From positions 1 to 50,850 of the forward strand of contig CAMDBX010000020.1 of NCBI GenBank assembly GCA_945889445.1: DNA of 50,850 nucleotides, in the 5' to 3' direction. Positions 12,223 through 35,177 of the stretch are shown here, piece by piece; within the stretch, counting starts at the first letter, position 1, and each line of letters starts with the position of its first letter. Position numbers and translations under genes: made by a program. The notes under the pieces are model-generated. The model saw only the letters and a list, made by a program, of their open reading frames with translations, was not told the DNA's origin and searched no databases. This DNA comes from Rhizobium sp. Q54. GTDB lineage: Bacteria > Pseudomonadota > Alphaproteobacteria > Rhizobiales > Aestuariivirgaceae.

Positions 12223-12240
12223 GTGACATAGCACTGTCAC
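12223..12240 (+). promoter_or_regulatory. Pho-box-like site before the ABC importer
   Basis: GTGACAT-AGCA-CTGTCAC matches the PhoB pattern of two CTGTCAT/C heptamers with a four-base spacer at 12 of 14 positions by my count. It lies 72 bases upstream of the substrate-binding protein start. The same bases contain a 6-bp inverted repeat (GTGACA/TGTCAC), so weaker binding in the opposite orientation, toward the acyltransferase gene, is possible. Confidence 0.6.
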
Positions 12241-12311
12241 ATGATGGGCCTAGTCACGCCCCGTCGTAGCGATCGTCGACGCGCGGCGTGGCAACACAAC
12301 AGGATATGATC

Positions 12312-13415
12312 ATGAAATTCACAACCCGACTTCTGCATTCCACCATGGCTCTCGCCATGCTTGCATCGGTGGTACCCGCCCATGCTGGCGCGATGGAAGA
12401 CCTCGTGGCCGCCGCGCAGAAGGAAGGCGAGCTGACCGTCATCGCTCTGCCGCATGACTGGTGTGGCTATGGCAAGGTGATCGAAGGCTTCAAGGCCAAG
12501 TACGGCCTCAAAGTCAACGAACTCAATCCCGACGCAGGCTCGGCCGATGAACTCGAGGCGATCCGCGCCAACAAGGACAACAAGGGCCCGCAGGCTCCGG
12601 ACGTGATCGACGTCGGCCTCGCCTTTGGCCCGCAGGCCCAGAAGGAAGGCCTGCTGCAGCCTTACAAGGTCATGACCTGGGACGAGATCCCGGCTGACGT
12701 TAAGGACGCCGACGGACATTGGTACGCTGACTACTACGGCGTCATGGCTTTTGGCGTGAACAAGGACATCGTGAAGACGACTCCGGCCGACTGGTCCGAC
12801 CTTCTGAAGTCCGATTACGCCGCTTCGGTTGCTCTCACGGGCGATCCGCGCGCCTCGAACCAGGCAATCCTCGCCATCATGTCGGCCGGCATGTCGCGGG
12901 GTGCCAAGCCTGGCATCGAGTCGGGCGAGAAGGGCCTCGAACTGATGGCTGAGCTCAACAAGGCCGGCAACTTCGTTCCCGTCACCGGCAAGTCGGGCAC
13001 CATCGCCCAGGGCCAGACGCCAATCGTCATCGCCTGGGACTACAACCTGCTGGCCTGGCGCGACAGCCTGAAGGGCAACCCCCCGATGGACGTGGTGATC
13101 CCGGCTTCCTCGTCGCTCGCCGGTGTCTACGTGCAGGCGATCTCGGCCTTCGCGCCGCATCCGAGCGCCGCAAAGCTGTGGATGGAATATCTCTACTCGG
13201 ATGAAGGCCAGCTCGCCTGGCTCGAGGGCTATTGCCACCCGGCCCGCTTCAACGCCATGTCGGCCGCCGGCAAAATCCCGGCTGACCTGCTGGCCAAGCT
13301 GCCGCCCGCCGAAGGCTATGCTAAGGCCGTGTTCCCCACCGTCGAGCAGCAGGAGGCCAACAAGGCCGCTGTGACCGGTGGCTGGGACAAGGTCGTCGGC
13401 GCCAACGTTCAGTAA
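12312..13415 (+). CDS. ABC importer, periplasmic substrate-binding protein
   Basis: The 367-residue protein starts with a cleavable signal peptide (MKFTTRLLHSTMALAM, cleavage near VPAHAGA) and then has the fold of the extracellular solute-binding families that serve iron, polyamine, 2-aminoethylphosphonate and sugar-phosphate importers. I chose the ATG at 12312 because AGGA sits eight bases upstream; the ATG six bases earlier is too close. Notable segments are LPHDWCGYGK, ending strand 1, and DVIDVGLAFGPQA. I cannot tell the substrate from sequence. A Pho-box-like site upstream and nearby phosphonate and arsenic genes suggest a phosphorus-containing or anionic ligand. A strong hairpin follows the stop before the first permease gene. 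Confidence 0.88.
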   Translation: MKFTTRLLHSTMALAMLASVVPAHAGAMEDLVAAAQKEGELTVIALPHDWCGYGKVIEGFKAKYGLKVNELNPDAGSADELEAIRANKDNKGPQAPDVIDVGLAFGPQAQKEGLLQPYKVMTWDEIPADVKDADGHWYADYYGVMAFGVNKDIVKTTPADWSDLLKSDYAASVALTGDPRASNQAILAIMSAGMSRGAKPGIESGEKGLELMAELNKAGNFVPVTGKSGTIAQGQTPIVIAWDYNLLAWRDSLKGNPPMDVVIPASSSLAGVYVQAISAFAPHPSAAKLWMEYLYSDEGQLAWLEGYCHPARFNAMSAAGKIPADLLAKLPPAEGYAKAVFPTVEQQEANKAAVTGGWDKVVGANVQ

Positions 13416-13437
13416 GTAGCGTACCCACCCCAAACTT

Positions 13438-13466
13438 GCTCCGTCCCGTACCTCTCGGGACGGAGC
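13438..13466 (+). terminator. Intercistronic hairpin after the binding-protein gene
   Basis: GCTCCGTCCCG (13438-13448) pairs perfectly with CGGGACGGAGC (13456-13466) around a seven-base loop and is followed by CTTTATTT. It lies between the binding-protein gene and the first permease. Such hairpins stabilise the upstream message or cause partial termination, giving more binding protein than membrane components. Confidence 0.7.
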
Positions 13467-13486
13467 CTTTATTTGGAACACTTGCC

Positions 13487-14362
13487 ATGAGCGCGAATGC
13501 CCCTCTGCGGCGCAGCGAAGCGAACCTCCTCAAGTGGTTCGGCGTGGTGCCCTTCGCGCTGTTCGCGCTGCTGTTCCTCATCCTGCCGACGATCCGGATC
13601 GTCATCGCATCCTTTCAGACGCCGGATGGGTTCTTCACCCTCGGCAACATCGCCGGCCTCGCCGCGCCAAACATCGTTGACGCCACGATACTGTCGCTGA
13701 AACTCAGCCTGCTCACCGCCTTCTTCGGTTGTTTTCTGGGCCTCGGCATCGCCATCGCCGTAACGCGGGGCGGGCTCCCGGAGTGGCTGCGTGGCGGCAT
13801 GCTGACGTTCTCGGGCGTCGCTTCCAATTTCGCTGGTGTGCCGCTGGCCTTCGCCTTCATAGCCACGCTGGGCCGCCTCGGCCTCATCACCGTGCTGTTG
13901 CGTGACTGGTTTGGCATCAATCTCGCCGCGCTGGGCTTCAATCTCATCAGCTTCACCGGTCTCGCCGTGACCTATCTCTACTTTCAGATCCCGCTGATGA
14001 TCCTGATCATCACGCCAGCCCTCGACGGTCTCAAGCGTGAGTGGAACGAGGCGGCCCAGACGCTGGGTGCCAACAATGTACAATACTGGCGGATGGTGGC
14101 ACTGCCCGTCCTGTGGCCTGCGCTGCTGGGGTCCTTCGCGCTCCTATTCGCCAATGCCTTCGGCGCGGTGGCCACCGCCATGGCGCTCACTGGATCTGCA
14201 CTGTCCATCATTCCCATCATTCTCTTTGCGCAGATTCGTGGTGATGTTCTGAATGATCCGCACCTCGGCTATGCGTTGGCCTTCGGAATGATCGTCGTCA
14301 CCGGCATCGCCAACCTCATCTACATCCTGTTGCGCGTGCGCGCCGAACGGTGGCTCAAGTGA
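13487..14362 (+). CDS. ABC importer permease, first subunit
   Basis: The 291-residue membrane protein belongs to the PotB/FbpB-type permeases with about six transmembrane helices; hydrophobic runs begin at FGVVPFALFALLF and recur through LIYILL near the end. The coupling loop to the ATPase is recognisable as EWNEAAQTLGANNVQYWRMV (an EAA motif). It carries the bound solute across the inner membrane together with the next permease. The ATG at 13487 begins MSANAPL; the frame extends upstream into the hairpin, but this is not likely to be translated. The stop lies 13 bases inside the next gene, so the two permeases are coupled. Substrate unknown. Confidence 0.88.
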   Translation: MSANAPLRRSEANLLKWFGVVPFALFALLFLILPTIRIVIASFQTPDGFFTLGNIAGLAAPNIVDATILSLKLSLLTAFFGCFLGLGIAIAVTRGGLPEWLRGGMLTFSGVASNFAGVPLAFAFIATLGRLGLITVLLRDWFGINLAALGFNLISFTGLAVTYLYFQIPLMILIITPALDGLKREWNEAAQTLGANNVQYWRMVALPVLWPALLGSFALLFANAFGAVATAMALTGSALSIIPIILFAQIRGDVLNDPHLGYALAFGMIVVTGIANLIYILLRVRAERWLK

Positions 14363-15147
14363 AGTCCGGCAAGTTCTGGGCCTGGATCGCTGCCGCCGGC
14401 GGCATCATCTACTTCCTGCTGCCGCTCATCGGCACGTTCGAGTTTTCGCTGCGTGCCCGCCGCGGCGTCTATTCCTTCGACGCCTACCGAAGCGTTCTGT
14501 TCGATCCACAGTTTCAGGAAACATTCCTCTATTCGATCGTCATGGCCCTTCTCACCATCGTCATGGGCGTGCTGATCGTGACGCCAACGGCCTTCTGGGT
14601 GAGGCTCAAACTGCCCGCCATCCGCCCTGTCGTGGAGTTTATCACGCTACTTCCGCTGGTGATCCCGCCTATCGTGCTCGTCTTCGGATATATCCGCCTC
14701 TACAATACATCAAGTTTCCTCCCGCTCACCGGCTCGACCATGGGTACCAACCTTCTGCTGATGCTGGGCTACACAACGTTGGCACTGCCTTATATGTACC
14801 GCGCCGTCGACACCGGACTGCGCACCCTTGATGTCCGCACCATGACAGAAGCCGCACAGATGCTGGGAGCCGGATGGATCACAATCCTCGGGCGGTTGAT
14901 CCTCCCCAATGTGCTGGTTGCCGTACTATCCGGCGCCTTCCTCACCTTCGCGATTGTGATAGGCGAGTATGTGCTGGCAGCTCTCCTCAACCGCCCGGCT
15001 TTCGGGCCCTACATGGTGTGGATGGGCTCAAACCGTGCCTATGAGCCAGCGGCACTTGCCGTCATCGCATTTGCCGTCACCTGGGGTTGCCTGGGGCTCA
15101 TTCAGCTTGCCACGCGCCTTGCCCCGCATACGAGAGCCAAACGCTGA
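14350..15147 (+). CDS. ABC importer permease, second subunit
   Basis: The 265-residue protein is a PotC-type permease with about six membrane helices, starting with WAWIAAAGGIIYFLLPLIG. The EAA coupling loop is MTEAAQMLGAGWITILGRL (19 residues). It forms the translocation channel with the preceding permease. The start is GTG at 14350, which overlaps the upstream gene by 13 bases; a second GTG at 14359 is an alternative. Its TGA overlaps the ATG of the ATPase gene. All four genes from 12312 to 16205 therefore form one compact importer operon. Confidence 0.87.
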   Translation: MAQVKSGKFWAWIAAAGGIIYFLLPLIGTFEFSLRARRGVYSFDAYRSVLFDPQFQETFLYSIVMALLTIVMGVLIVTPTAFWVRLKLPAIRPVVEFITLLPLVIPPIVLVFGYIRLYNTSSFLPLTGSTMGTNLLLMLGYTTLALPYMYRAVDTGLRTLDVRTMTEAAQMLGAGWITILGRLILPNVLVAVLSGAFLTFAIVIGEYVLAALLNRPAFGPYMVWMGSNRAYEPAALAVIAFAVTWGCLGLIQLATRLAPHTRAKR

Positions 15148-16205
15148 TGTCCTTCATCCAACTCAACCGTCTCGCCAAGCAGTTTGGCTCCACAAAGGTC
15201 GTCAACGACTTCTCGCTGTCAATCCCCAAGGGTGCCTTCGTATCGCTGCTCGGTCCTTCGGGCTGCGGCAAGACCACCGTGCTGCGCATGCTGGCAGGCC
15301 TCGAGACTCCGACCGCTGGCTCCATCACGATTGACGGCCGGGACGTGACGGGGTTGAAGGCCAATCAGCGCCAGATCGGCATGGTGTTCCAGGCTTATGC
15401 GCTGTTCCCCAACCTGACGGTTGCCCAGAACGTCGCCTTCGGGCTCCGCGTCGCCAACAAGCCGCGCGCCGAGATCGACAAGCGCGTAATGGAAATGCTG
15501 GAACTGATCGGTCTGCCCGACCTTGGCGGCCGCTACCCCTTCCAACTATCAGGTGGTCAGCAGCAGCGCGTGGCGCTGGCGCGCGCCATCGCACCCCGCC
15601 CGCGCGTCCTGCTGCTTGATGAGCCGCTCTCGGCCCTCGATGCCAAGATCCGCGTCAGCCTGCGGAGCGAAATCCGCGCCATCCAACGTGAACTCGGCAT
15701 CACAACGGTGTTCGTGACGCATGATCAGGAAGAAGCGCTTAGCATCTCTGACCAGGTTGTTGTCATGTACAAGGGGATCGCCGAGCAGGCGGGAACCCCC
15801 TTCGAAGTCTATAACGCGCCCAAGACACGGTTCGTCGCCACCTTCGTCGGCACGCTCAATGTGCTGCAGGCAACGGTAGAGGATTCGGCGAGCGGAACTG
15901 TAAGGGTGGGCGACTTTGTTTTTCCGGTCAGCATGGCTGCCCCATCGGGCAACGGTGCCCGGATCTCCCTGGCCATTCGGCCCGAAAGCATCAGGCTCAA
16001 AGGCGCAGAGGCCTGCGACATCAATGTCCCAGCCGACATCCAGGACGTCTCCTTCCTTGGCTCGGTCATCCGCATCCGGGCCATGGTCCTCGGTGCACCA
16101 GTCGAGTTCGACATGTTCAACCAACCGGACATGCCACCACCCGCCCCTGGCTCCCGTGTCACCGTCGGCATCAACAGCCGCGACCTGCTCCTTCTTGCCG
16201 ACTAA
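15147..16205 (+). CDS. ABC importer ATP-binding protein
   Basis: The 352-residue ATPase powers the importer. Walker A is GPSGCGKTTVLRML (near residue 38), the Q-loop is VFQAYALFPN, the signature is [15 protein letters not shown], Walker B is VLLLDEPLSALDA, and the switch histidine is in FVTHDQEEAL. After about residue 240 comes a TOBE-type regulatory domain (LNVLQATVEDSASGTVRVGD, then SLAIRPESIRL). This architecture belongs to the PotA/FbpC/PhnT group. The ATG at 15147 overlaps the previous stop (TGATG). No separate terminator follows; 68 bases later the arsR gene begins, with its own regulatory sites between. Confidence 0.92.
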   Translation: MSFIQLNRLAKQFGSTKVVNDFSLSIPKGAFVSLLGPSGCGKTTVLRMLAGLETPTAGSITIDGRDVTGLKANQRQIGMVFQAYALFPNLTVAQNVAFGLRVANKPRAEIDKRVMEMLELIGLPDLGGRYPFQLSGGQQQRVALARAIAPRPRVLLLDEPLSALDAKIRVSLRSEIRAIQRELGITTVFVTHDQEEALSISDQVVVMYKGIAEQAGTPFEVYNAPKTRFVATFVGTLNVLQATVEDSASGTVRVGDFVFPVSMAAPSGNGARISLAIRPESIRLKGAEACDINVPADIQDVSFLGSVIRIRAMVLGAPVEFDMFNQPDMPPPAPGSRVTVGINSRDLLLLAD

Positions 16206-16230: not shown

Positions 16231-16248
16231 CCGTCACGCGATTGTCAT
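16231..16248 (+). promoter_or_regulatory. Pho-box-like site before arsR
   Basis: CCGTCAC-GCGA-TTGTCAT matches the PhoB half-site pattern at 12 of 14 positions by my count and lies 25 bases before the arsR start. If bound by PhoB it would link the arsenate-export genes to phosphate starvation. Confidence 0.55.
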
Positions 16249-16273: not shown

Positions 16274-16660
16274 ATGAGAGCAATTGAAGCAATCGAAGCC
16301 TTGTCGGCGCTTGCGCAGGGCACGCGTCTGGAGGCGTTCCGCCTGCTGGTGAACCACGAACCCGAAGGGCTGCCGGCAGGGGACATCGCGCGCCTGCTGA
16401 ACGTGCCTCACAATACCTTGTCCAGCCACCTCGCCACACTAGCCCGCGCGGGGTTAGTCACGGTCGAACGCCGAAGCCGGACGATGATTTACCGCGTCGA
16501 ACTTGGGACCGTCCGGAGCCTGGTGATGTTCCTTCTCAGGGACTGCTGCAACGGTCAGCCCGAACTATGCAGCCCCCTGGTTGACGAGATCGCAAGAGTG
16601 TGTTCGCCCCAAGTAGCTTGCGGATGCGAGGAAAACGAGTCTTTGCGCCCGGCAGATTGA
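16274..16660 (+). CDS. arsR: ArsR family transcriptional repressor
   Basis: The 128-residue protein is a winged-helix ArsR/SmtB regulator: [15 protein letters not shown], then [21 protein letters not shown] as the DNA-reading helices, and the wing [17 protein letters not shown]. The C-terminal half is rich in cysteine (Cys91, Cys92, Cys99, Cys110, Cys116, Cys118), a plausible arsenite-binding site. The pair Cys91-Cys92 resembles ArsR variants whose metalloid site is near the C terminus rather than in the recognition helix. The start at 16274 fits the family N terminus; an upstream extension is in frame but would overlap the operator. The arsenic-specific GAPDH gene begins 14 bases after its stop. 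Confidence 0.9.
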
Positions 16661-16674: not shown

Positions 16675-17721
16675 ATGCGCGTCGGTATCAACGGAATGGG
16701 CCGCATCGGACGGCTGGCCTTGCGGGCCGCTCTTGGAGCGGCTGAGCGCGGCGAGGACGATCCACGCCGCGGCAACGGGCTCGAGGTCGTCCATCTCAAC
16801 GAGATCAAGGGAGGGGCGGCAGCGACCGCCCACCTGCTCGAGTTTGATTCCGTCCAGGGGCGCTGGCGCGGCAACATAAGCTCTGAAGGCGAAGACACCA
16901 TTCGCATCGGCGAACGCAAGCTCGGCTTTTCCACAATACCCGCCGCCGGGGACATTCCGTGGGGTGACCTCGGCGTTGAATTGGTGCTGGAATGCAGCGG
17001 CAAATTCCTGACCCACGCGACCCTCGACGGCCATCTGAAACGTGGCGCAAAGCGGGTCATCGTTGCAGCCCCGGTCAAGGAACCGGACGTTCTCAACGTC
17101 GTGGTGGGCGTCAACCATCACCTCTATGATCCCACCAAGCACCCGATCGTCACCGCAGCCTCCTGCACCACCAACTGCCTCGCCCCGGTGGTCAAGGTCG
17201 TTCACGAGTCGATCGGCATCCGCCACGGCCAGATCACCACCATCCACGACCCGACCAATACCAATGTGGTGACCGACGCGCCGCACAAGGACCTGCGTCG
17301 CGCCCGCTCCGCCATGCTGTCGTTGCAACCGACGACGACAGGCAGCGCCACGGCCATCGCCCTCATCTACCCCGAACTCAAGGGCAAGCTTGACGGCCAT
17401 GCGGTGCGCGCACCTGTTCTCAACGCCTCACTGACCGACTGCGTGTTCGAACTCCAGCGTGCGACGACAAGGGAAGAGGTCAACGAACTGTTCGCCGAGG
17501 CCGCCAAGGGACCGCTCGCCGGCATCCTCGGCTATGAACCCCGCCCGCTGGTCTCGATCGACTATGCGCGCGATACCCGCTCTTCCATCATCGATGGGCT
17601 CTCGACGCTGGTAACGGACGGCACGCTGCTCAAGGTCTATGCCTGGTACGACAATGAGATGGGCTATGCCTGCCGCATGGTCGATCTTGCCTGCCACCTG
17701 CGCGAAGTCGGCATCTCATGA
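16675..17721 (+). CDS. ArsJ-associated glyceraldehyde-3-phosphate dehydrogenase
   Basis: The 348-residue enzyme is a GAPDH of the type linked with arsJ. With arsenate in place of phosphate it forms 1-arseno-3-phosphoglycerate, which ArsJ exports. The Rossmann start is [16 protein letters not shown], and the catalytic Cys164 lies in [11 protein letters not shown]. The NAD-binding and catalytic segments ([33 protein letters not shown]) are intact. I placed the start at 16675, preceded by GAGGAGAA; an upstream in-frame extension covers the end of arsR. The stop overlaps the arsJ start by four bases. It is unlikely to be the housekeeping glycolytic enzyme. Confidence 0.93.
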
Positions 17722-18947
17722 CGGCGGGCACGCGCAACTACGCAATCGTCACGTCCGCCTACTGGGGGTTCACCCTCACCGATGGCGCCTTGCGCATGTT
17801 GGTTCTGCTGCACTTCTTCAATCTGGGCTATTCACCCTTCGTGCTGTCCTTCCTGTTCCTCCTCTATGAAGCGGCAGGGATAGCGGCCAATTTCGTCGGT
17901 GGCTGGCTCGCTACCCGCTTCGGCATCACGCGGATGCTGACGGTCGGCCTCTCGACGCAAATCATCGGCTTCCTCGTGCTCTCTGCCCTCTCGCCCGATT
18001 GGACCGCCGCTGCGTCGGTCGCATGGGTCGTCATGGCGCAGGGCATCTGTGGTGTTGCCAAGGACCTCACAAAAACCGCATCGAAGTCAGCCATCAAGGT
18101 GGCCGAGAAGGAAGCCCGCGCTGAGGATGCGGAAGGCCGCCTGTTCCGCTGGGTGGCATGGTTCACCGGATCGAAGAACGCCATGAAGGGGCTCGGCTTC
18201 TTCCTGGGCGGCGTTCTGCTCCAGGTCGCAGGCTTCAGCCTGTCGCTGTGGCTGATGGCGCTGATGCTGGCACTGGTGCTTGTGGGCGTTGTCTGGTCGC
18301 TGCCGCCGATGATGGGAAAGAGCAAGGCCTCTTCATCGGCAAGGGAACTGTTCGGCAAGTCGCGGGGCGTAAACCTGCTTGCCGCTGCCCGCATCTTCCT
18401 CTTCGGCGCACGAGACGTGTGGTTCGTCGTGGGGGTCCCTGTCTTTCTCTATGCCAATGGCTGGACCTTCACCATGGTTGGCGGCTTCATGGCGCTGTGG
18501 ACCATTTTCTACGGCCTCACCCAGGCGTCGGCACCTGCCGTTATCAAACGGAGCGCTGACGGACTGACGGCTGAAGTGCCAGCGGCTCGCCTGTGGTCCG
18601 CGCTACTCGCGCTCGTGCCGGTCATCATCATCCTAGCACTTGCCGCCAACACCCCGGTTCGACCCGACATCATTCTCGTCGCAGGCCTTGCTGTGTTCGG
18701 GGCGGCCTTCGCCATCAACTCCTCCGTACACTCCTACCTGATCCTTGCCTATGCCGGGTCAGAGAAGGCGGCTGAGGACGTGGGATTCTACTATGCGGCC
18801 AACGCCGCTGGTCGCTTTACGGGGACGCTTCTGTCAGGCATGCTTTACCAATGGGGTGGGCTCACGGCTTGTCTTGCAGGCTCTGCCATCATGCTTGCAC
18901 TTTGCTTTGTCGCGACGATGATGCTGCCGTTATCGAGAGAGGCCTAG
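17718..18947 (+). CDS. arsJ: ArsJ organoarsenical efflux transporter
   Basis: The 409-residue major-facilitator protein has about twelve membrane helices and the ArsJ-type opening [20 protein letters not shown] polar loop with [16 protein letters not shown], followed by a [17 protein letters not shown] segment, is characteristic of the family. ArsJ exports 1-arseno-3-phosphoglycerate, which breaks down outside to arsenate, so the pair acts as an arsenate efflux route that needs no reduction. Its start overlaps the GAPDH stop (ATGA). No arsenate reductase or ArsB/Acr3 pump is present in this window, so this route stands alone here. Confidence 0.93.
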
Positions 18948-27260: not shown

Positions 27261-27800
27261 AACCTCGCAGAAACGGGCAACGGCACGCTCAAGCGGCCCG
27301 TCATTGGTGATCCGAACCACGCGCACGCCGGCGGGGTAATCCGGCACCTTGCGCTGCACACGCTCGCGCGCCTGCTCAGGCGTTTCCCGACCACGCGCCA
27401 CGATGCGCGCCACGAGAACATCTTCAGGGGCGGAAATCTCCGCGACGGTGACATTGGCAAAGCGTTCGAAGGCATCGCCCACCGAGGCGCGTGAGCAGTT
27501 CACCACCACCGTGGCGCCGGACTCGAGATGGCTCTCGATGAAGCGGCCGATGCCATAAGAGTTGCCATGGGCACGCCACCACAGAGCGAATGCTCCATCC
27601 GCCACCGCGAGCGCGAATTCCATCTCCGTCATGGAAACATGGTCCTCGGCATCGGGATTGCTGAGGCGCGTCACGAAGCGGCGCGGGAAGACCACGTTGC
27701 CATCGCCTTTGAGGATGTGCCTCGCACCCGTCATCACGGCATCCTTGCCGGCCCCGCTGGGGCCAACGACCAGAACGAGCCGACCTGTTGCAGCATTCAT
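27150..27800 (-). CDS. phnN: Ribose 1,5-bisphosphate phosphokinase PhnN, extended C terminus
   Basis: PhnN phosphorylates ribose 1,5-bisphosphate to PRPP, closing the C-P lyase pathway. Walker A is VVGPSGAGKDAVM (residues 11-23), and guanylate-kinase-like segments follow (FVTRLSNPDAEDH, HGNSYGI). The protein is 216 residues long, where relatives have about 185; homology appears to end near RFCEVL at residue 181. The last 35 or so residues are hydrophilic (ALDSQNEQEDRDDNGRG) and are encoded opposite the 3' end of the permease gene, so they look like read-through after loss of the original stop. The start overlaps the phnM stop by one base. The PRPP-forming core seems intact. Confidence 0.9.
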   Translation of the reverse strand: MNAATGRLVLVVGPSGAGKDAVMTGARHILKGDGNVVFPRRFVTRLSNPDAEDHVSMTEMEFALAVADGAFALWWRAHGNSYGIGRFIESHLESGATVVVNCSRASVGDAFERFANVTVAEISAPEDVLVARIVARGRETPEQARERVQRKVPDYPAGVRVVRITNDGPLERAVARFCEVLKNPVANPGGGALDSQNEQEDRDDNGRGLIIVEHLQ

Positions 27801-28939
27801 CACATCACCCGCACGCCTTCCCGCCATACGCGGCGCACGGCAGGGATACCATCCCGAACACAGACTTGGACCAGGTCGGCTCGCCGGTGCGGCTCGATGG
27901 CGCCACGATCATCGAGCCCGGCGGCACGTGCCGGATTGAGGGTGATGGTGCGCATCGCCGCTGGAAGCGTCATGCCCGGCACGGTGTCGGCAAGGCGGAA
28001 GGCGGCCGGCAGAAGGCTGGATGGCACATAGTCAGAGGACAACACGTCGAGATGGCCGCTGGCCGCCACCTCCACCGCCGAGATGTTGCCAGAGTGAGAC
28101 TTGCCGCGCACGACGTTGGGCGCGCCCATCAGCACGGCAAGGCCATTTCGGTGCGCGGCCTGCGCGGCCTCCCGCGTCGTCGGGAACTCGGCGATCGCCA
28201 CACCATCGGCAATGGCCTCCTCCACATGCGCCACGGTCGCATCGTCATGGCTCGCAAGTCGCACGCCAAGCCTCGCTGCCATGTCGAGGATTGCCCGCTT
28301 GTTGATGCCGGCATGCTTGGCCTGCATCTGCTGACGGACGGCGATATAGTCATCCATCTGCTCAGGCAGGATGAGCTTCTTGCCGATGTAGTACTCGCGA
28401 AACTTGTCGATCGACACGAACTGCCGGGCACCCGGCGTATGGTCCATGATGGAGATGAGATGAAGTGGCCCGGCCTGGGCCGTTATCTCCGCCGATTCCG
28501 CTGTATCTGCGCAGGGAAGTTCGCAGCGGAGATGGATGAAGTGCTGGGCCCGCAGGCGCCCGCTGTTCTGGGCCTGAAATATCGCCGCGCACAGCGACAT
28601 GGCCTCGCGAGCCGAGCGATCAACCGGCTCGAAGCTTCCCGCCCGCAGCGCATCGAAGACGGTTGTGATGCCGGCCGCGGCGATCTGCGCATCATGCGCC
28701 ATGACCGCCGGGATGGCCGGCCAGGCTACGCCGGGGCGCGGCATGTAGTGGCTCTCAAGATGATCGGTATGAAGCTCGACGAGGCCTGGAACCAGATAGT
28801 CACCGTCAATGTCCTCGGCAGGTGCCGCAACATTTCCGGCGATCACTTCGAAGACCTTGCCGTCGCGAACGATCACTGTCCCCTCAAGGATCTCGTCAGG
28901 AAGCACGACGCGGGCATTGGTGAAGAGGGTCTCGGTCAT
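27800..28939 (-). CDS. phnM: Ribose 1-methylphosphonate 5-triphosphate diphosphatase PhnM
   Basis: The 379-residue amidohydrolase removes diphosphate from ribose 1-phosphonate 5-triphosphate before C-P cleavage. The canonical metal-site motif is complete: PGLVELHTDHLESHYMPRPG, then HLRCELPCADT, SIMDHTPGARQF, LASHDDATVAH and LSSDYVPSSLL. It is close in layout to E. coli PhnM, unlike the diverged copy at 23577. The start overlaps the DUF1045 stop by four bases, and the stop overlaps the phnN start, so it is in the middle of the coupled operon. Confidence 0.95.
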   Translation of the reverse strand: MTETLFTNARVVLPDEILEGTVIVRDGKVFEVIAGNVAAPAEDIDGDYLVPGLVELHTDHLESHYMPRPGVAWPAIPAVMAHDAQIAAAGITTVFDALRAGSFEPVDRSAREAMSLCAAIFQAQNSGRLRAQHFIHLRCELPCADTAESAEITAQAGPLHLISIMDHTPGARQFVSIDKFREYYIGKKLILPEQMDDYIAVRQQMQAKHAGINKRAILDMAARLGVRLASHDDATVAHVEEAIADGVAIAEFPTTREAAQAAHRNGLAVLMGAPNVVRGKSHSGNISAVEVAASGHLDVLSSDYVPSSLLPAAFRLADTVPGMTLPAAMRTITLNPARAAGLDDRGAIEPHRRADLVQVCVRDGIPAVRRVWREGVRVM

Positions 28940-29631
28940 GCGGCAACCTCGGCGACTGAATGGGGAAAGGGAAAGTGTCGTGTTGCCAGGAAGGGCGCGC
29001 CCGGAGCCGGCTCCTCGAACAACGCAAGCCCGTCGATGAGCACGGGAGTGTCCAGCACGGGCGCAAAATGCTCCACCGCCGCGGCTTCGAACCGGTCTGC
29101 GTCCGTCGGAGGAAGACGCTCGGTCAGCGTCATGTGGAAGCGAAAGTCCTCGAAGACATAGGGGTAGCCCCAGTCCACCAGATGCCGCTCCTGACGCTCG
29201 CTGAGACCTGCCGACCTGCGGCGTGCCAGTTCGGAGGCAGAGGGCCGGCAGCGGAAGCCGTCGAGTTCACGCACCGCTCGGTCAGCGATGCGATGCAGTG
29301 GCGCACAGGGCTCGCGCGGCACCAACGCGAGAAAACGATCAAGCAGCGACACTTTGAGCGACACCCGAAAACACTGTTCTTTCGCGACAAGTGCGGCCAC
29401 CGCCCGCAACAAGGCCTCTGGGCGCACGGTGTCGCGCAGCGCGAAGGGAGGCTTCATCGTGGCATGGAAGCCATAGCGGCGCGGATCACCGGTCACCGCG
29501 GAAAGGCCCGCGACCCCAGGCTGTTCAAGCGCCTCGCCGGTGAAGGCATCGCGGCCGAGCCAGCGCGAGCCCAGCGCATGAAGGGCCGTGCCGCACGGCG
29601 GCGCGAAATAGATGGCGTAACGCATCGACAT
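28936..29631 (-). CDS. DUF1045 protein, probable 2H phosphoesterase
   Basis: The 231-residue protein belongs to DUF1045, a family found in C-P lyase operons. It has two HxT motifs, His56-Ala-Thr58 in YGFHATMKPPF and His166-Met-Thr168 in FRFHMTLTERL, the catalytic signature of 2H phosphoesterases, which open cyclic phosphodiesters. No phnP is visible in the operon; PhnP opens the 5-phosphoribosyl 1,2-cyclic phosphate made by C-P lyase. DUF1045 is a sensible stand-in, but that is inference. The ATG at 29631 gives MSMRYAIYF; the ATG six bases later gives the usual family start MRYAIYF and is equally possible. It overlaps phnM by four bases. Confidence 0.88.
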   Translation of the reverse strand: MSMRYAIYFAPPCGTALHALGSRWLGRDAFTGEALEQPGVAGLSAVTGDPRRYGFHATMKPPFALRDTVRPEALLRAVAALVAKEQCFRVSLKVSLLDRFLALVPREPCAPLHRIADRAVRELDGFRCRPSASELARRRSAGLSERQERHLVDWGYPYVFEDFRFHMTLTERLPPTDADRFEAAAVEHFAPVLDTPVLIDGLALFEEPAPGAPFLATRHFPFPHSVAEVAA

Positions 29632-29632
29632 C

Positions 29633-30313
29633 TCAGTCCAGCCTGATGCTGCGCGAGCAGGCGCGCCGGCGCTCGTTCTCGTCATGGAACACGGCAAGAA
29701 TGGCGCTGCCCTGCCCCTGAGCCTCGGCAATCAGTTCGAGCACGCGATTTCGGTTCTCGGTGTCAAGCGATGCGGTGGGCTCATCGAGCAGCAGGATCGG
29801 GAAGTGGGCTGCAAAGCCACGCGCGATGTTCACCCGCTGCTGCTCGCCACCCGAGAAGGTCATGGGCGACAGATGCCAGAGGCGCTTCGGGATGTTGAGC
29901 CTTTCAAGCAGCATGCGAGCTCGCGCCAGCGCCTGCTCCTCTGCAATGCCGCGGTCCATCATCGGCTCCGCCACCACCATCTCGGCCGGAACCCGGGGGA
30001 TGACTCGCAGGAATTGCGTGACATAACCAATCACGTCGCGCCGCAATTCGATCACGTCGCGCGGCGCCGCCGTCACCACATCTGTCCAGTCAGTGCCGGA
30101 CAACACGCGGATCGCACCGGCATTGGCGCGGTAGGTGCCATAGACGAGCTTCAACAGAGAACTCTTGCCGCGGCCCGACGGCCCGGTGACAGCCACGGCT
30201 TCACCTGCCCCGACTTCGGCGTTGAGGCTCTCGAATACCGGGATGCGCGCACCAGCCTGCTGATGCAGCAGGAACGACTTGGTGAGGTTTTCGATCTTCA
30301 GCACCGCGCTCAT
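29633..30313 (-). CDS. phnL: C-P lyase complex protein PhnL
   Basis: The 226-residue ABC-type ATPase-like protein is PhnL, which together with PhnG, PhnH, PhnI and PhnM is needed to form ribose 1-phosphonate triphosphate. Walker A is GPSGRGKSSLLKLVYG, the signature is FSGGEQQRVNIARGF, and Walker B is ILLLDEPTASLD. The segment VIGYVTQFLRVIPRVPA is characteristic of PhnL. It has no membrane partner and is not a transporter ATPase. The ATG at 30313 follows the phnK stop by two bases; an overlapping GTG at 30319 is an alternative. Confidence 0.95.
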   Translation of the reverse strand: MSAVLKIENLTKSFLLHQQAGARIPVFESLNAEVGAGEAVAVTGPSGRGKSSLLKLVYGTYRANAGAIRVLSGTDWTDVVTAAPRDVIELRRDVIGYVTQFLRVIPRVPAEMVVAEPMMDRGIAEEQALARARMLLERLNIPKRLWHLSPMTFSGGEQQRVNIARGFAAHFPILLLDEPTASLDTENRNRVLELIAEAQGQGSAILAVFHDENERRRACSRSIRLD

Positions 30314-30315
30314 GG

Positions 30316-31086
30316 TCACACCTGCAGCACGGAGGAAACGAGAAGCTGGGTATAGGGCGCCTGCGGATCCTCGAGGATCTGGTCCGTCAGCCCCTGTTCG
30401 ATGACCTGCCCCTGTTGCATGACCATCATTCGCGACGAGAGAAGCCGCGCCACGGCAAGGTCATGCGTCACCACGATGGCCGCAAGGTCGAGCCGTTTGA
30501 CGAGACCGCGGATAAGGTCGAGCAGCCGTGCCTGCACCGAAACATCGAGGCCGCCGGTTGGTTCATCCATGAACACGAGGCGCGGCGAGGTCACGAGATT
30601 GCGCGCGATCTGAAGGCGCTGGCGCATCCCGCCGGAGTAGGACCACGGGCTGTCGTCAATCCGGTCCTCGGGAATCTCGACGCGCTTCAGCCAGTCGGTT
30701 GCCGTGGCGCGGATGTGGCCATAGTGCCGCTCGCCCACGGCCATCATGCGCTCGCCGACATTGGCGCCGGCGGAGACACCCATGCGCAGGCCATCACGCG
30801 CATCCTGATGCACAAAGCCCCAGTCGGTGCGCATCAGCAACCGCCGCTCAGCCTCGCTCATCTCGTCGAGGGCCACGTTGCGACCATCTCTCATGGTGTA
30901 GCGAACCTTGCCGGAACTGGCCGGCAGGTGGCCGGACAGGCAGCGCAACAGGGTCGTCTTGCCGGAGCCCGATTCACCCACGATGGCCAGCACTTCACCT
31001 GGCCACAGTTCGAAAGACACGTCCCGGCAGCCGGCACGCGTGCCATAGAACTTGCTGACATTCTCGGCGGACAGCAGAACGCTCAT
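30316..31086 (-). CDS. phnK: C-P lyase complex protein PhnK
   Basis: The 256-residue ABC-like protein is PhnK, which binds the PhnGHIJ core and is needed for C-P bond cleavage in vivo. Walker A is GESGSGKTTLLRCLSG, the signature is YSGGMRQRLQIARNL, Walker B is LVFMDEPTGGLD, and the switch histidine is in VVTHDLAVARLL. The family insert FVHQDARDGLRMGVSAG is present. The start at 31086 overlaps the phnJ stop by four bases; a longer frame upstream is not needed. Confidence 0.95.
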   Translation of the reverse strand: MSVLLSAENVSKFYGTRAGCRDVSFELWPGEVLAIVGESGSGKTTLLRCLSGHLPASSGKVRYTMRDGRNVALDEMSEAERRLLMRTDWGFVHQDARDGLRMGVSAGANVGERMMAVGERHYGHIRATATDWLKRVEIPEDRIDDSPWSYSGGMRQRLQIARNLVTSPRLVFMDEPTGGLDVSVQARLLDLIRGLVKRLDLAAIVVTHDLAVARLLSSRMMVMQQGQVIEQGLTDQILEDPQAPYTQLLVSSVLQV

Positions 31087-31919
31087 CGGTCTCCCCGCTT
31101 TCCAGCGCAGAAGTCGGTGTCGGAGCACACGAACATGCGCGTGCCCTGGTCATCCATCACGATTTCGTCGAGGAAGCTGTCACGCGATCCGCACAGCGCA
31201 CAGGGCTCGTCCCAGGACTGTACCTCGAAGGGGTGGTCCTCGAAGTCGAGGCTCTTTACTTTCGTATAGGGCGGCACCGCATAGATGCGCTTCTCGCGAC
31301 CGGCACCGAACAGCTGCAGCGCCGGGCAATCATCGAGCTTGGGGTTGTCGAATTTCGGGATCGGCGAGGGATCGAAGACATAGCGGTCCGCCACCTTGGC
31401 CGGATAGGCATAGGTCGTGGCGATCTCGCCATATTGCGCGATGTCCTCATAGAGCTTCACGTGCATCACGCCATATTCTTCCAGCGCATGCATGGTGCGG
31501 GTCTCGGTCTCGCGTGGCTCAAGGAAACGCAAGGGCTCCGGGATCGGCACCTGGAAGACGAGGATCTGGTCCTCGGTCAACCGCGCTTCGGGTATGCGAT
31601 GGCGGGTCTGGATGACGCTCGCCTCTTCCGTCCGCTCCGTTGTCGCCACGCCCGCCGTCTTGACGAAAAACTTGCGGATGGAGACGGCATTGGTGGTGTC
31701 GTCCGCGCCCTGGTCGATCACCTTGAGCGTATCCTCGGGCGTCAGCACTGCGGCCGTCACCTGCACGCCGCCCGTGCCCCAGCCATAGGGCATTGGCATC
31801 TCGCGGCTGGCGAAGGGCACCTGATAGCCGGGAACGGCAATGGCCTTGAGGATGGCCCGGCGGATCATCCGCTTGGTCTGCTCGTTGAGGTAGGCGAAGT
31901 TGTAGGCGGGCGCGTTCAT
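31083..31919 (-). CDS. phnJ: Carbon-phosphorus lyase PhnJ
   Basis: The 278-residue PhnJ is the radical SAM enzyme that breaks the C-P bond of ribose 1-phosphonate 5-phosphate, giving a hydrocarbon (methane from methylphosphonate) and 5-phosphoribosyl 1,2-cyclic phosphate. The iron-sulfur and thiyl cysteines are all present at 240, 243, 265 and 271 (CALC, then VCSDTDFC), equivalent to E. coli 241, 244, 266 and 272. The PhnJ core segment GYQVPFASREMPMPYGWGTG (20 residues) is also conserved. The start overlaps the phnI stop by four bases. Confidence 0.97.
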   Translation of the reverse strand: MNAPAYNFAYLNEQTKRMIRRAILKAIAVPGYQVPFASREMPMPYGWGTGGVQVTAAVLTPEDTLKVIDQGADDTTNAVSIRKFFVKTAGVATTERTEEASVIQTRHRIPEARLTEDQILVFQVPIPEPLRFLEPRETETRTMHALEEYGVMHVKLYEDIAQYGEIATTYAYPAKVADRYVFDPSPIPKFDNPKLDDCPALQLFGAGREKRIYAVPPYTKVKSLDFEDHPFEVQSWDEPCALCGSRDSFLDEIVMDDQGTRMFVCSDTDFCAGKRGDR

Positions 31920-33007
31920 TCCGCCGCCTCCAGCCTGTCCTTCGCGCCGTCAATCTCGGCGCGCATGCGGCGCAGCAGAACCAGTTCCGACTGGAAGTCG
32001 ACATAATGCGGTAGCTTGAGGTGCTCGACGAAGCCCGTCGCCTGCACATTGTCGGAATGCGACAGCACGAACTCCTCGTCCTGGGCCGGCGCCACACGCT
32101 CCTCGCCCAGTTCACCGGCGCGCAGCGACCGGTCAACCAGCGCCATGGACATCACCTTGCGCTCGCACTGGCCGAAGCCCAGCCCATAGCCGCGCGTGAA
32201 TTGCGGCTTTACCGTCGCCGAGCCCTTGAACTGGTTGATCATCTCGCATTCGGTGACGGTAATCTCGCCGATGACGACCGGAAAACCCAACTCCTCCGGC
32301 GTGAAGCTCACCTCCACAGTGCCAAGCCTGATCTCGCCCGCAAACGGATGGGTGCGGCCATAGCCACGCTGTGTGGAGTAGGCGAGCGCCAACAGGAAGC
32401 CCTCGTCGCCGCGTGCCAGGTTCTGCAGGCGCAGGTCACGCCCGGCGGGAAAGTTCAGCGGGTCCTGCGTCAGGTCGCCCGGTTCACCAGCCTCTGCCGA
32501 CGGTTGTTCCATCAGTCCTTCATTGCCCAGCAGTTCCAGCACGCGGGGCATGTCACTGCGCAATGCGCTGGGTGCGCGCGCCGCTTCGGCAGGTTCCACA
32601 TCCCCGGCCAGCGAGAAGTCCAGCAAGCGATGGGTGTAGTCGAATGTGGGGCCCAGGATCTGCCCGCCCGGAATGTCCTTGAAGGCGGCAGAGACGCGGC
32701 GCTTCACGCGCATCGACTGGGTATCGAGCGGCTCGGCATAACCAAAGCGGGCAAGCGTCGTGCGCGTGGCGCGGATCAGGAAGATCGCCTCGATCAGGTC
32801 GCCCCGCGCCTGCTTGATGGCCAGTGAGGCCAGCTCGCGGTCATAGAGCGAGCCTTCGTTCATCACCCGGTCGACGGCCAGCGTCAGCTGCTCGGCGATC
32901 TGGTCCAGCGTGATGGACGGCACGCTGCGGTCGCCGCGGCGCTCTTCGTCGAGCAACCGGTGCGCGGCATCGATGGCCTGCTCGCCACCTTTCACGGCCA
33001 CATACAT
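31916..33007 (-). CDS. phnI: C-P lyase complex protein PhnI
   Basis: The 363-residue PhnI is the nucleosidase subunit of the C-P lyase core; with PhnG, PhnH and PhnL it swaps the base of ATP for a phosphonate. The N terminus MYVAVKGGEQAI and segments FGYAEPLDTQSMRVKRRVSA, LALAYSTQRGYGRTHPF and SDNVQATGFVEHLKLPHYVD are typical. It is somewhat shorter inside the family range. The start codon overlaps the phnH stop by one base. Confidence 0.96.
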   Translation of the reverse strand: MYVAVKGGEQAIDAAHRLLDEERRGDRSVPSITLDQIAEQLTLAVDRVMNEGSLYDRELASLAIKQARGDLIEAIFLIRATRTTLARFGYAEPLDTQSMRVKRRVSAAFKDIPGGQILGPTFDYTHRLLDFSLAGDVEPAEAARAPSALRSDMPRVLELLGNEGLMEQPSAEAGEPGDLTQDPLNFPAGRDLRLQNLARGDEGFLLALAYSTQRGYGRTHPFAGEIRLGTVEVSFTPEELGFPVVIGEITVTECEMINQFKGSATVKPQFTRGYGLGFGQCERKVMSMALVDRSLRAGELGEERVAPAQDEEFVLSHSDNVQATGFVEHLKLPHYVDFQSELVLLRRMRAEIDGAKDRLEAAE

Positions 33008-33597
33008 CAGGCGGGCTCCAGCATGCGGATTTCGGTCGACCGCGGCAGGGCCGCCACCCGTCCAGGGGCGGCAAAGATCACATCTATGCCCACGGGAAAA
33101 TCAGCATGGTTGTTGGCCATCGCCGCCCAGAAGGACGCGCTCAACCCAGTCACACCGAATGGCTCGCTGCCCCGGATGCCGGGGCCGGAAAGGGCCACGG
33201 CACCGGGCATGAAGCCTTCAACCTGAATGATCAGTGTCGCCGACCGGTCAGGATACTCATGCGTACCCTGCATCAGCACGTCGGGCGCGGGCAGCGTCGG
33301 GCCTGCCTCGGCAAATAGGAATTGCGCCTTGTCCGGCTCCGCCATGATCGGCGCTCCGGCATGGAAGCGCAGATAGTGCGTCACTTTGTCATTACGCAGC
33401 TCGGGCGCCAGCCAGATCGGAGTCTGGAAGTCACACAGCGTGAGGGCAATGGCGGCGGTGCTCGCAAGCAAAGGCTCCGGTGCCTCGATGTCAGCACCCA
33501 GTTCAAGCACGCGGCCCGGCCTCGCCATGGCCTGCATGATCGCCCGGAAGGCATGGGCGGACTGCACCGCCACGTCGGAAAAGCCGCGTTCAGTCAT
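33007..33597 (-). CDS. phnH: C-P lyase complex protein PhnH
   Basis: The 196-residue PhnH is a core subunit of C-P lyase related in fold to PLP-dependent transferases but lacking their catalytic residues. Segments visible are FRAIMQAMARPGRVLEL, LTLCDFQTPIWLAPEL, LMQGTHEYPDRSATLIIQV and LSGPGIRGSEPFGVTGL, all conserved in the family. I placed the start at 33597 (MTERGF); it overlaps phnG by eight bases. A longer frame upstream is the phnG coding region in another frame. Confidence 0.95.
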   Translation of the reverse strand: MTERGFSDVAVQSAHAFRAIMQAMARPGRVLELGADIEAPEPLLASTAAIALTLCDFQTPIWLAPELRNDKVTHYLRFHAGAPIMAEPDKAQFLFAEAGPTLPAPDVLMQGTHEYPDRSATLIIQVEGFMPGAVALSGPGIRGSEPFGVTGLSASFWAAMANNHADFPVGIDVIFAAPGRVAALPRSTEIRMLEPA

Positions 33598-34051
33598 CGC
33601 CACGCACCATGGTGAAGAAGTCGACCTTGGTGGCAGCTGCCTTGGTGGACGTCTCCACATGCGCGGCCTGCAGCTTCGCCTCCAGTGGTGCGATCACCTT
33701 CTCGGAAATCACCATGCTGGTGTCACGTCCTTGCAGCAACGCGTCACAAATGGCTGCGAGACGCGCATGCGCACCATTGCGACCCATCACATAGGAATGA
33801 CCCTCCGTACCGTCACCAAGGCGCACGGCGCAGCGCGTTACCGTTGCCTCACCGAGGTTGAAGGCAGCACCGGTTGCCCCCATCCGGCCGCGCAGCATGA
33901 CGAGGCCGGTCTCGGGCGCCCGCAGCACGTCATGTGGCGTGGCAGCGACATCCCTGGCACAGGACTCAAGATCGTTCCACGCGGACAGTGACAGAACGCG
34001 CATCCACGCCGCGCGCTGGTTCCCGGCGGATGTCGGAGATTGTGATGGCAT
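33590..34051 (-). CDS. phnG: C-P lyase complex protein PhnG
   Basis: The 153-residue PhnG is the small core subunit. It is recognised by RAAWMRVLSLSAWNDLESC near the N terminus, VLRAPETGLVMLRGRMGATGAAFNLGEATVTRC in the middle (here cited in shortened form as APETGLVMLRGRMG and FNLGEATVTRCAV), and GHSYVMGRNGAHARLAAICD. The start at 34051 lies seven bases after the stop of the hexapeptide transferase gene, so the operon probably begins with that gene rather than here. No separate Pho box of good quality precedes phnG. Confidence 0.94.
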   Translation of the reverse strand: MPSQSPTSAGNQRAAWMRVLSLSAWNDLESCARDVAATPHDVLRAPETGLVMLRGRMGATGAAFNLGEATVTRCAVRLGDGTEGHSYVMGRNGAHARLAAICDALLQGRDTSMVISEKVIAPLEAKLQAAHVETSTKAAATKVDFFTMVRGDD

Positions 34052-34058
34052 GGATCCA

Positions 34059-34706
34059 CTAACCAACCGAATGTAACGGCTGGATGACAGAGACATGCTC
34101 ATAGCGCTCGAGGAAGGCCTCGGCCGAGAGCGACCGAAAATCCGGTAGCGCGGCGCGAATCTCCTCGTGCGACCAGTCCCACCAGGCCAACGCCTGCAAC
34201 CTGTCCGCAATGTCGCGCGGGTGGCGCCACTTGATGAAGCGCGCCGGCGCACCTGCCACCACCGCATAAGGGGCCACGTCCTTGGTCACCACCGATTGTG
34301 CCCCGATGATGGCGCCATCACCAATGGTCACGCCCTTCATGACGATCGCGCCATGCCCGATCCACGTGTCGTGCCCCACCCGCACCGGGCGGGACCGGCG
34401 CCAGTCGAAGACCGCCTGCTCGTCCTGCTCGTCCGGCCAGAAATAACTCGAGCGATACATGAAATGATGCAGAGATGCCCGGTGATAGGGGTGTTCGCCG
34501 GGGTTGAGCCGCGTGAAGGCGGCAACGTTCACGAACTTGCCGAGCACCGAATAGGCAATATCGGCATAGCGCGCAGTGTAGCTGTAGTCGCCCATCTCCG
34601 ATTCAAGGATGTTGGAACCTTCTCCAATCTCAACAAAGGCGCCGAGCTGGCTGTTGCGCACCGTGGCATTGGGATGAAGGAAGGGCTGAGGTCCAAGTTG
34701 CGGCAT
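34059..34706 (-). CDS. Hexapeptide-repeat transferase of C-P lyase operons
   Basis: The 215-residue protein is a left-handed beta-helix acyltransferase of the group found with phn genes. Hexapeptide turns are seen at NATVRNSQLGAFVEIGEGS and at VRVGHDTWIGHGAIVMKGVT, with GAIIGAQSVVTKDVAPYAVV near the end, and the catalytic-type histidine lies in the HHFMYRSSYFW region. Relatives of the chloramphenicol/xenobiotic type acetylate small amines; here it may acetylate aminoalkylphosphonates, a role played by PhnO elsewhere. It is the first gene of the phn operon, with a Pho-box-like site 37 bases upstream. Confidence 0.9.
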   Translation of the reverse strand: MPQLGPQPFLHPNATVRNSQLGAFVEIGEGSNILESEMGDYSYTARYADIAYSVLGKFVNVAAFTRLNPGEHPYHRASLHHFMYRSSYFWPDEQDEQAVFDWRRSRPVRVGHDTWIGHGAIVMKGVTIGDGAIIGAQSVVTKDVAPYAVVAGAPARFIKWRHPRDIADRLQALAWWDWSHEEIRAALPDFRSLSAEAFLERYEHVSVIQPLHSVG

Positions 34707-34742
34707 GCTGTGTCTCCGAAACCCTTCTCTTCCGAGCGTTCG

Positions 34743-34760
34743 GTGACATGCAGATGAAGG
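34743..34760 (-). promoter_or_regulatory. Pho-box-like site of the C-P lyase operon
   Basis: On the minus strand CCTTCAT-CTGC-ATGTCAC matches the Pho pattern at 11 of 14 positions by my count. It lies 37 bases upstream of the hexapeptide transferase start and would control the whole operon down to phnN. Confidence 0.55.
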
Positions 34761-34774
34761 ATGGTTGCGAAGGC

Positions 34775-35107
34775 TTAGGAATTGTCTTCACGGGCCGCAA
34801 CTGTTGCCGCAGCGCCGTCGACGATGTTCAAGTGCTCGGTCAGGCTGGCCATCTGCAGCATTTCCCGTACTGTGCCATTGCGCGGAGCAAACGTCACGAA
34901 TGCAATGCCGCGCTGTTTGAACTGCTTGAGGGTGGAAACCAGCAGGCGAATCCCCATCGACGATAGGTAAGTGAGGTCTTGGAGGTCGATTGTCACCTTG
35001 CCATCCTGCGCATTCACCGCACCTGCCTTGGCAGCGAACCCGGTTTCGATCTTAGCCACCGCAGCGGTGTCGAGTCGGCCTTCGAGCTTCAGGATTTGAA
35101 CGGTCAT
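34775..35107 (-). CDS. STAS domain protein (anti-sigma factor antagonist type)
   Basis: The 110-residue protein is a single STAS domain: VQILKLEGRLDTAAVAKIE, VTIDLQDLTYLSSMGIRLLV and GIAFVTFAPRNGTVREML. The phospho-accepting serine of SpoIIAA-like proteins would be in the YLSSMG loop, and both serines are present. Such proteins bind anti-sigma factors or sensor kinases and change state by phosphorylation. The ATG at 35107 has GGAGG eight bases upstream. A Pho-box-like site lies 53 bases before it, so it may connect phosphate starvation to another signalling path. No partner kinase or sigma factor is beside it. Confidence 0.9.
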   Translation of the reverse strand: MTVQILKLEGRLDTAAVAKIETGFAAKAGAVNAQDGKVTIDLQDLTYLSSMGIRLLVSTLKQFKQRGIAFVTFAPRNGTVREMLQMASLTEHLNIVDGAAATVAAREDNS

Positions 35108-35159
35108 ATCAATTGCCTCCGGCGACATTGGATGATGCATTGTGTGGTGCTCAGATTAC

Positions 35160-35177
35160 ATGACAGTTTTGTGACTT
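35160..35177 (-). promoter_or_regulatory. Pho-box-like site before the STAS gene
   Basis: On the minus strand AAGTCAC-AAAA-CTGTCAT matches the Pho pattern at 12 of 14 positions by my count, with a perfect second half-site. It lies 53 bases before the STAS start. Confidence 0.55.

Follow-up and report, generated by a model that had tools for sequence, protein, structure and literature searches.

The contig analysed here, a stretch of 50,850 bases from Rhizobium sp. Q54 (CAMDBX010000020.1, our contig C20, taken whole and referred to as the window), carries between about 11.2 and 36.2 kb what is quite probably an island of the Pho regulon, in which nine direct-repeat sites of the PhoB type would serve up to ten promoters, one of them, that of an arsR-gapJ-arsJ arsenate-export operon, being predicted to be activated by PhoB and repressed by ArsR. 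The proposed composite PhoB-ArsR element of such arsJ operons is the most interesting part of the finding. The window represents 1.03% of a draft genome of 4,941,608 bases that is 99.6% complete. An earlier note on this DNA had listed six Pho-box-like sites, each made of two CTGTCAT-like heptamers with a four-base spacer, and had united them in one PhoB-controlled block of about 23 kb. The six sites are real, all of them being present in the sequence, and a PhoB-controlled block is the best reading of them, one that is supported by the sequence because the genome encodes a PhoB over its family cut-off beside pst and phoU genes, because the sites match a matrix derived from pstS promoters, and because relatives conserve most of the sites for which a check was possible.

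Pho-box-like sites and their excess over chance

Against CTGTCAY-N4-CTGTCAY, the sites at 12223, 16231, 19863, 24771, and 35160 match at 12 of 14 positions and the one at 34743 at 11, as had been counted by hand. The claimed distance of 25-75 bases to a gene start holds for five of them (71, 25, 39, 42, and 36 base pairs [bp]) but not for the STAS gene, whose called start lies 19 bp away (52 bp if the start were 35107). The outline of the block needed redrawing as well: it is a little longer than was proposed and has nine sites, with separate promoters instead of one transcript. The earlier list had left out the best site of the window (34073), an array before a corA-like gene (36204-36232), and a likely site at 12155; the phnC site is part of an array of four heptamers, whose middle heptamer TTGCAAT is weak; and the site at 24771, assigned to the minus strand, lies in a palindrome in which a box can be read on both strands. 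All coordinates and individual scores are collected in Table 1.

The window contains 12 matches to CTGTCAT-N4-CTGTCAT at three mismatches or fewer, compared with a mean of 3.07 in shuffled sequence, none of the 100 shuffles reaching 12. In the whole genome we found 86 matches to CTGTCAY-N4-CTGTCAY at two mismatches or fewer versus 34 for the backwards pattern, and nine of those 86 fall in the window (binomial P = 2.9e-7; 3.0e-6 when the overlapping pair of corA matches is taken as one). With our own gene calls, a gene starts on the same strand within 200 bp of 16 of these 86 matches, and five of the 16 are in the window; neither arsR nor corA is represented among the 16, since the gene caller missed the former and mis-started the latter.

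For scoring we used a matrix of 18 columns with the spacer masked, obtained by expectation-maximization (EM) started from the consensus on the pstS promoters of 26 relatives (three pstS loci were skipped), with the genome's own pstS held out. TIGR00975, tried as a PstS probe, matched in only 8 of 61 genomes and was replaced by the genome's own PstS, which matched in 54. The background consisted of 20 hand-picked 20-kb stretches (400 kb) of large contigs, the pst region among them, with 349 genes, 195 of which have an upstream gap. The held-out pstS took the top score, 16.6, among the 349 background genes. A score of 6 or more was reached by 11 of the 45 called window genes versus 20 of the 349 (P = 2e-4); the gene caller was crude, and arsR and corA were added by hand to the list of named promoters, outside that count of 45. 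A matrix scan of this kind had been the check proposed in the earlier note, and the seven promoters behind its six sites indeed outscored the 195 background promoters (Mann-Whitney P = 1.9e-5). Among the named promoters, phnG, phnC, the acyltransferase gene, arsR, and the second importer score above 10; the phnM paralogue, the operon head of the carbon-phosphorus (C-P) lyase, STAS, corA, and the first importer score between 6.1 and 8.9.

The regulator itself is encoded on contig C9, where phoB stands beside a PstS-like gene, pstC, pstA, pstB, and phoU; upstream lies the gene of a PhoR-like kinase. In a family profile search PhoB, PstC, PstA, PstB, and PhoU passed their curated cut-offs, and PstS and the PhoR-like kinase fell just under theirs; a search of the PDB sequences with PhoB as query added nothing.

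The proposed composite promoter of the arsR-gapJ-arsJ operon

In the window the Pho box ends 4 bp before an inverted repeat of the ArsR type, TGTGTCGA-N6-TCGACACA, which is found at the -10/start region of arsR, as for an ArsR-controlled operon, and is a candidate operator. A GATAAT-like -10 can be read within this palindrome, so that the box would sit where a -35 belongs. Among relatives of the same genus, five arsR promoters could be scored (L260-L263 and L266; L264 was too short and L265 has no arsR nearby), and in all five a pair of GTC(A/G) repeats with an 11-bp spacing stands 25 bp ahead of the ATG; after the pair comes a palindrome that resembles TGTCGATAATTCTCGACA and reaches the start codon, and the sequence farther upstream is unrelated. 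The identity to the window was 0.61-0.83 in the box and 0.62-0.86 in the operator versus 0.21-0.28 in the upstream flank.

As to the products of the operon, gapJ and arsJ are adjacent and each exceeds its family cut-off, which by sequence makes them an export module of ArsJ and its associated glyceraldehyde-3-phosphate dehydrogenase (GAPDH). The ArsR of the window contains Cys91, Cys92, and Cys99, which may form the arsenite-binding cluster expected of an arsenite sensor. By eye and without a family search, we recognised an Acr3-like gene between arsR and gapJ in L260, L261, L263, and L266, three of which also have an OsmC-like gene, and in L267 and L074, which are more distant, ArsC-like and Acr3-like genes; the window has neither at that place, and Acr3 (TIGR00832) had no match in the draft genome. 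A partial second ArsJ match (profile positions 318-390) was observed near the end of contig C128 of G000 (10531-10749).

Breadth of the element across arsJ loci

We examined two wider collections. The named set comprised the best 80 of at least 563 confirmed ArsJ stretches; 73 of the 80 were usable, mostly from Alpha- and Betaproteobacteria, and seven had no usable promoter. The named set overlaps the same-genus set, L039-L041 and L043 being likely the same as L264, L263, L266, and L260. For the phylum set, we hand-picked 60 regions out of 118 positive genomes, as a rule one for each genus; 58 proved usable. One arsJ locus may yield two regions, and the shuffles were made on the same regions.

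At two mismatches or fewer, 17 of the 73 named loci have a site (shuffle mean 0.13), and at three or fewer, 39 do (shuffle mean 1.43, maximum 6 in 100 shuffles); by title, these 39 include Phreatobacter, Beijerinckiaceae, some Bosea, Neoroseomonas, Roseomonas, Comamonadaceae, Hydrogenophaga, and Thauera. As a comparison, all open reading frames (ORFs) of at least 200 amino acids from the same loci gave 23 and 65 of 1413 at the two thresholds, a comparison that keeps gapJ itself and spurious ORFs. The corresponding counts in the phylum set are 9 and 15 of 58 (shuffle means 0.1 and 0.93; maxima 1 and 3 of 60 shuffles), and by our own row count nine of the 15 come from the 18 loci of the window's class, where the site is common. 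With the matrix, 11 of the phylum promoters reach a score of 6 (null mean 4.3, maximum 10) and eight a score of 9 (null mean 1.4, maximum 5).

Motif discovery by randomly seeded EM gave the same two components. In 43 gapJ-headed promoters of the named set the first motif was the ArsR-type palindrome (log-likelihood 297; shuffled 74), and after masking of that palindrome the same promoters yielded tGTCAt..a..tGTCAt (203; shuffled 53-56; fraction 0.77); in 42 arsR-headed promoters an ArsR-type motif was followed by ccGTCAtcgAA.ctTCAC (186; shuffled 57-59; fraction 0.50). The shuffles kept single-base composition only. Among 31 promoters with both elements, the window included, 15 have a gap of 13-14 bp between box and operator and five a gap of 3-5 bp; these 20 compare with a permutation mean of 10.1 and a maximum of 16 in 5000 permutations, for classes that were chosen post hoc. 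The difference between the two classes, roughly one turn of the helix, is suggestive.

From these data we lean towards the view that a composite PhoB-ArsR core promoter, with both sites on one helix face and separated by 3-5 or 13-14 bp, is a common AND-gate control element of ArsJ operons in Alpha- and Betaproteobacteria, one that would license arsenate export under phosphate starvation and fire it upon the binding of arsenic to ArsR.

Conservation of the other sites

Counts here refer to relatives whose promoter could be scored. The importer has a site 72-83 bp from its start in 3 of 3; phnG reaches a best score of at least 5.7 in 12 of 12, at 54-69 bp in 11 of them; and the head of the C-P lyase operon has a box at 35-42 bp in 7 of 10 (L276 was too short). 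Before the corA-like gene a site recurs at the same position in both relatives (scores 3.0 and 11.3), before the STAS gene in the single relative available, and the second importer has a site in 2 of 2. For the acyltransferase site there is no clear conservation, one distant relative having a weak site elsewhere. Since the end of the preceding gene contains the phnG box, the C-P lyase core seems to have a promoter of its own there. The set of phnG, H, I, J, K, L, and M was found complete, phnI and phnJ by Pfam.

Alternative readings

A number of observations weigh against the island and its composite promoter, and the alternatives draw on them. If the sites were chance matches to a loose pattern, one would expect results such as the location of 51 of the 86 genome matches inside called genes, and such as the rank of four of the six sites—those of the importer, the STAS gene, the C-P lyase head, and the phnM paralogue are equalled or beaten by 8.7, 6.7, 4.6, and 4.1% of the 195 background promoters, with the corA site likewise among those in the range of 4-9%. 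In addition, 3 of the 10 C-P lyase heads lack the box at its usual place (in L274 it is at 161 bp, and L275 and L277 have none), and for the phnC array no relative was scorable. The clustering in the window, the performance of the held-out matrix, and the conservation against diverged flanks nevertheless render a chance origin very improbable, and the singly weak sites are convincing because they are conserved in relatives. A different alternative would leave the phosphonate promoters to PhoB and see in the arsR element an ordinary -35 plus an ArsR operator, with the GTCA repeats incidental. L261, L262, and L263 in fact keep TTGAC, a possible normal -35, in the spacer of the box, so that box and -35 may be superposed in these promoters, and TTGAC stands at that place in 15 of 28 arsR orthologues of the same order from genomes without arsJ (the absence of arsJ having been checked in all 28, this is a cleaner control than one of 28 promoters at class level, for which it was checked in four genomes). 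Furthermore, the pstS matrix gives the same-genus arsR boxes scores of only 1.4 to 11.3, and two of those 28 order promoters, L341 and L362, do have a box, so that the rule of a box at arsJ operons only was dropped; in L362 the boxed arsR is followed, by eye, by ArsC-like and aquaporin-like ORFs. A -35 accounts for TTGAC, however, but not for two GTCA repeats 11 bp apart, which are kept without TTGAC in the window and in L260, and which the EM recovers as a separate motif once the operator is masked; we thus regard an ordinary -35 as an improbable explanation. With regard to breadth, 34 of the 73 named loci have no site at three mismatches or fewer, other Bosea and Acetobacteraceae among them; outside the window's class the box is rarer, with 6 of 40 loci; and EM on 42 gapJ-headed promoters of the phylum set returned a start-region motif and no Pho box.

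The double box between the phnM paralogue and the second importer calls for separate consideration. Positions 24768-24786 form a perfect palindrome, a 9-bp inverted repeat with a 1-bp centre, which may be a shared PhoB site or the operator of another regulator of the two divergent genes. The perfection of the arms, the uniqueness of the sequence in the genome (one other place at two mismatches, none closer), and its restriction to loci where the phnM paralogue and the importer diverge would suit the latter: the paralogue has a box in 2 of 6 relatives, exactly those with the divergent importer, a count that also speaks against the island reading, and both of these keep the palindrome with small changes at most. 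Each strand, on the other hand, reads as a box, with scores of 10.7 and 8.9 and at a normal distance to its gene, and we consider an operator for a regulator other than PhoB the less probable reading, though one worth bearing in mind.

Table 1. Features of the PhoB-type block and its flanks, in window coordinates; scores are those of the pstS matrix.
Feature	Position	Strand	Remarks
OlsA/GlsA-like acyltransferase gene	11214..12125	-	
Pho-box-like three-heptamer array before acyltransferase gene	12155..12183	-	score 13.3; 29 bp to start
Pho box before ABC (ATP-binding cassette) importer	12223..12240	+	score 6.1; 71 bp to start
ABC importer: binding protein, two permeases, ATPase	12312..16205	+	
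Pho box of arsR promoter, -35 side	16231..16248	+	score 12.1; 25 bp before ATG
Inverted repeat, candidate ArsR operator reaching start codon	16253..16274	.	putative operator role
arsR	16274..16660	+	NF033788 over cut-off
gapJ, ArsJ-associated GAPDH	16675..17721	+	NF033735 over cut-off
arsJ, organoarsenical efflux permease	17718..18947	+	NF033734 over cut-off
Second phoU (phoU2)	18999..19694	-	no Pho box of its own, score below zero
Four-heptamer array before phnC, 11-bp spacing	19841..19880	+	scores 15.8 (19841), 15.4 (19863)
phnC, phnD, phnE, phnE	19920..23495	+	
phnM paralogue	23577..24728	-	
Palindrome-centred double Pho box: TCTTCATGACAGTGTCAT on +, GTTTCATGACACTGTCAT on -	24766..24788	.	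scores 10.7 (second importer), 8.9 (phnM paralogue)
Second phosphonate-type importer: phnD2, phnC2, phnE3	24827..27260	+	
C-P lyase operon: hexapeptide protein, phnG, H, I, J, K, L, TIGR03223 protein, phnM, phnN	27150..34706	-	
Pho box before phnG, within end of hexapeptide gene	34073..34090	-	score 17.2, top of window
Pho box before hexapeptide gene (C-P operon head)	34743..34760	-	score 8.4; 36 bp to start
STAS-domain gene	34775..35140	-	
Pho box before STAS gene	35160..35177	-	score 6.6; 19 bp to start (52 if start = 35107)
CorA-family transporter gene	35194..36162	-	
Three-heptamer Pho-box array before corA-like gene	36204..36232	-	score 6.2

Further features of the window and genome

The first ABC importer is of the 2-aminoethylphosphonate type by weak family matches, none of which is over its cut-off, and its substrate may be an organophosphorus compound. 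Relatives of this importer adjoin the C-P lyase operon in L274 and L277, of the same genus, and in L262 a relative precedes gapJ-arsJ in the same order as in the window.

The OlsA-like acyltransferase gene has a counterpart on contig C4 (L013:442-1485), with 49% identity over 268 residues, and both genes have a Pho-box-like site upstream (scores 13.3 in the window and 9.4 in L013), from which pairing a lipid change under phosphate control would be possible. Elsewhere in the genome, strong boxes were observed at L004 1501 (contig C32; score 16.4, 20 bp before a DUF2794 gene) and at L169 1501 (contig C88; score 17.2, 32 bp before an ORF without a Pfam match), and a box scoring 8.9 at L141 1501 (contig C29), 48 bp from a gene whose product has a phytase-like esterase domain and which is a plausible further Pho target.

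Just outside the block, at 8682-11217, a gene for a CYTH-CHAD protein adjoins a polyphosphate kinase 2 gene (ppk2); no Pho box was found before ppk2 or before phoU2, whose promoters both score below zero in the matrix. Matches at 14831 (in a permease gene), 15811, and 33786 lie inside genes and were not taken as sites; the one at 14831 is among the nine of the 86 genome matches that fall in the window. On the minus strand at 40536-40553 there is a Pho-box-like site, ATGTCATAAAAACGTTGC, with a score of 12.6, at a distance of 119 bp from the start of a short called gene (40001-40417). This match, which could be due to chance, we excluded from the block, the background rate leading us to expect about one such score in the window.

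Proposed mechanism and relation to known systems

The scheme that we infer—from the binding of PhoB and ArsR to the direction of control, the position of the -10, and the physiology—would run as follows. Phosphate starvation, signalled through PhoR and PhoB, would switch on arsR-gapJ-arsJ together with phosphonate import, the C-P lyase, the second phosphonate-type importer, and the further ABC importer. In the arsR promoter the box would occupy the -35 side and the ArsR-type operator would cover the presumed -10 up to the start codon. In classical activated promoters the PhoB box overlaps the -35 region, and on that ground the arsR layout predicts activation by PhoB and exclusion of the polymerase by ArsR: PhoB would recruit the polymerase, and ArsR would block it until arsenic bound to ArsR. 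The GAPDH would then make 1-arseno-3-phosphoglycerate for export by ArsJ, and arsenate export would be armed as phosphate uptake, the entry route of arsenate, rises. Arsenate is a phosphate mimic on entry into the cell, and since it enters by phosphate uptake, the gating of its export by phosphate starvation makes sense.

Yuan et al., in 2006, reportedly treated the proteobacterial Pho regulon with phn operons as members, and Chen et al., in 2016, are said to have described arsenate export by ArsJ and GAPDH. The Pho regulon of proteobacteria (PMC4415409) resembles the block in its direct repeats of CTGTCAT-like heptamers with a 4-bp spacer and in its phn targets; the block differs in having arsR-gapJ-arsJ, STAS, and corA-like genes clustered in and a box of its own before phnG. 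A coupling of arsenic genes to PhoB or low phosphate is likewise known from Halomonas HAL1, where PhoB binds at the arsenite oxidase genes aioBA in an electrophoretic mobility shift assay (PMC4563254), so that a PhoB box at an arsenic gene has a precedent, and from Agrobacterium, with its aio and pst genes (reviewed in PMC7533571); the target there is arsenite oxidation, whereas here it is arsenate export, and the parts consulted describe no joined ArsR operator. Arsenic islands (PMC3834237) also have ars, pst, and phn genes side by side, but they centre on arsenite oxidase, and the sections consulted report no Pho boxes at ars operons.

The arsenate efflux system in which a GAPDH and ArsJ act via 1-arseno-3-phosphoglycerate (PMC5930303) involves the same two protein families, and the GFAJ-1 module also stands beside a pst operon; the term PhoB does not occur in the main text of that paper. 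In the arsR-sphX-gapJ-arsJ cluster of Nodularia (PMC9846622), phosphate limitation raises gapJ and, in one column of the table consulted, arsJ, with arsR lower; the rise is seen for gapJ in both of the first two columns and for arsJ in the second of them, columns that we took as two times of phosphate limitation. Nodularia is, however, a cyanobacterium, most of its arsenate-related genes changed little, and the parts consulted name no Pho box (PMC9846622). In our searches, which covered open-licence papers, we found no statement on a Pho box at ArsJ operons, and such a box may thus be unreported so far.

Arsenate being a phosphate mimic, phosphate-starved cells are the most exposed to it; and if the proposed control is true, a single short element at which phosphate is read through PhoB and arsenic through ArsR would account for the matching of export to that risk. 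Tolerance based on ArsJ would then depend on the phosphate status of the cell, and tests in phosphate-rich conditions could miss it.

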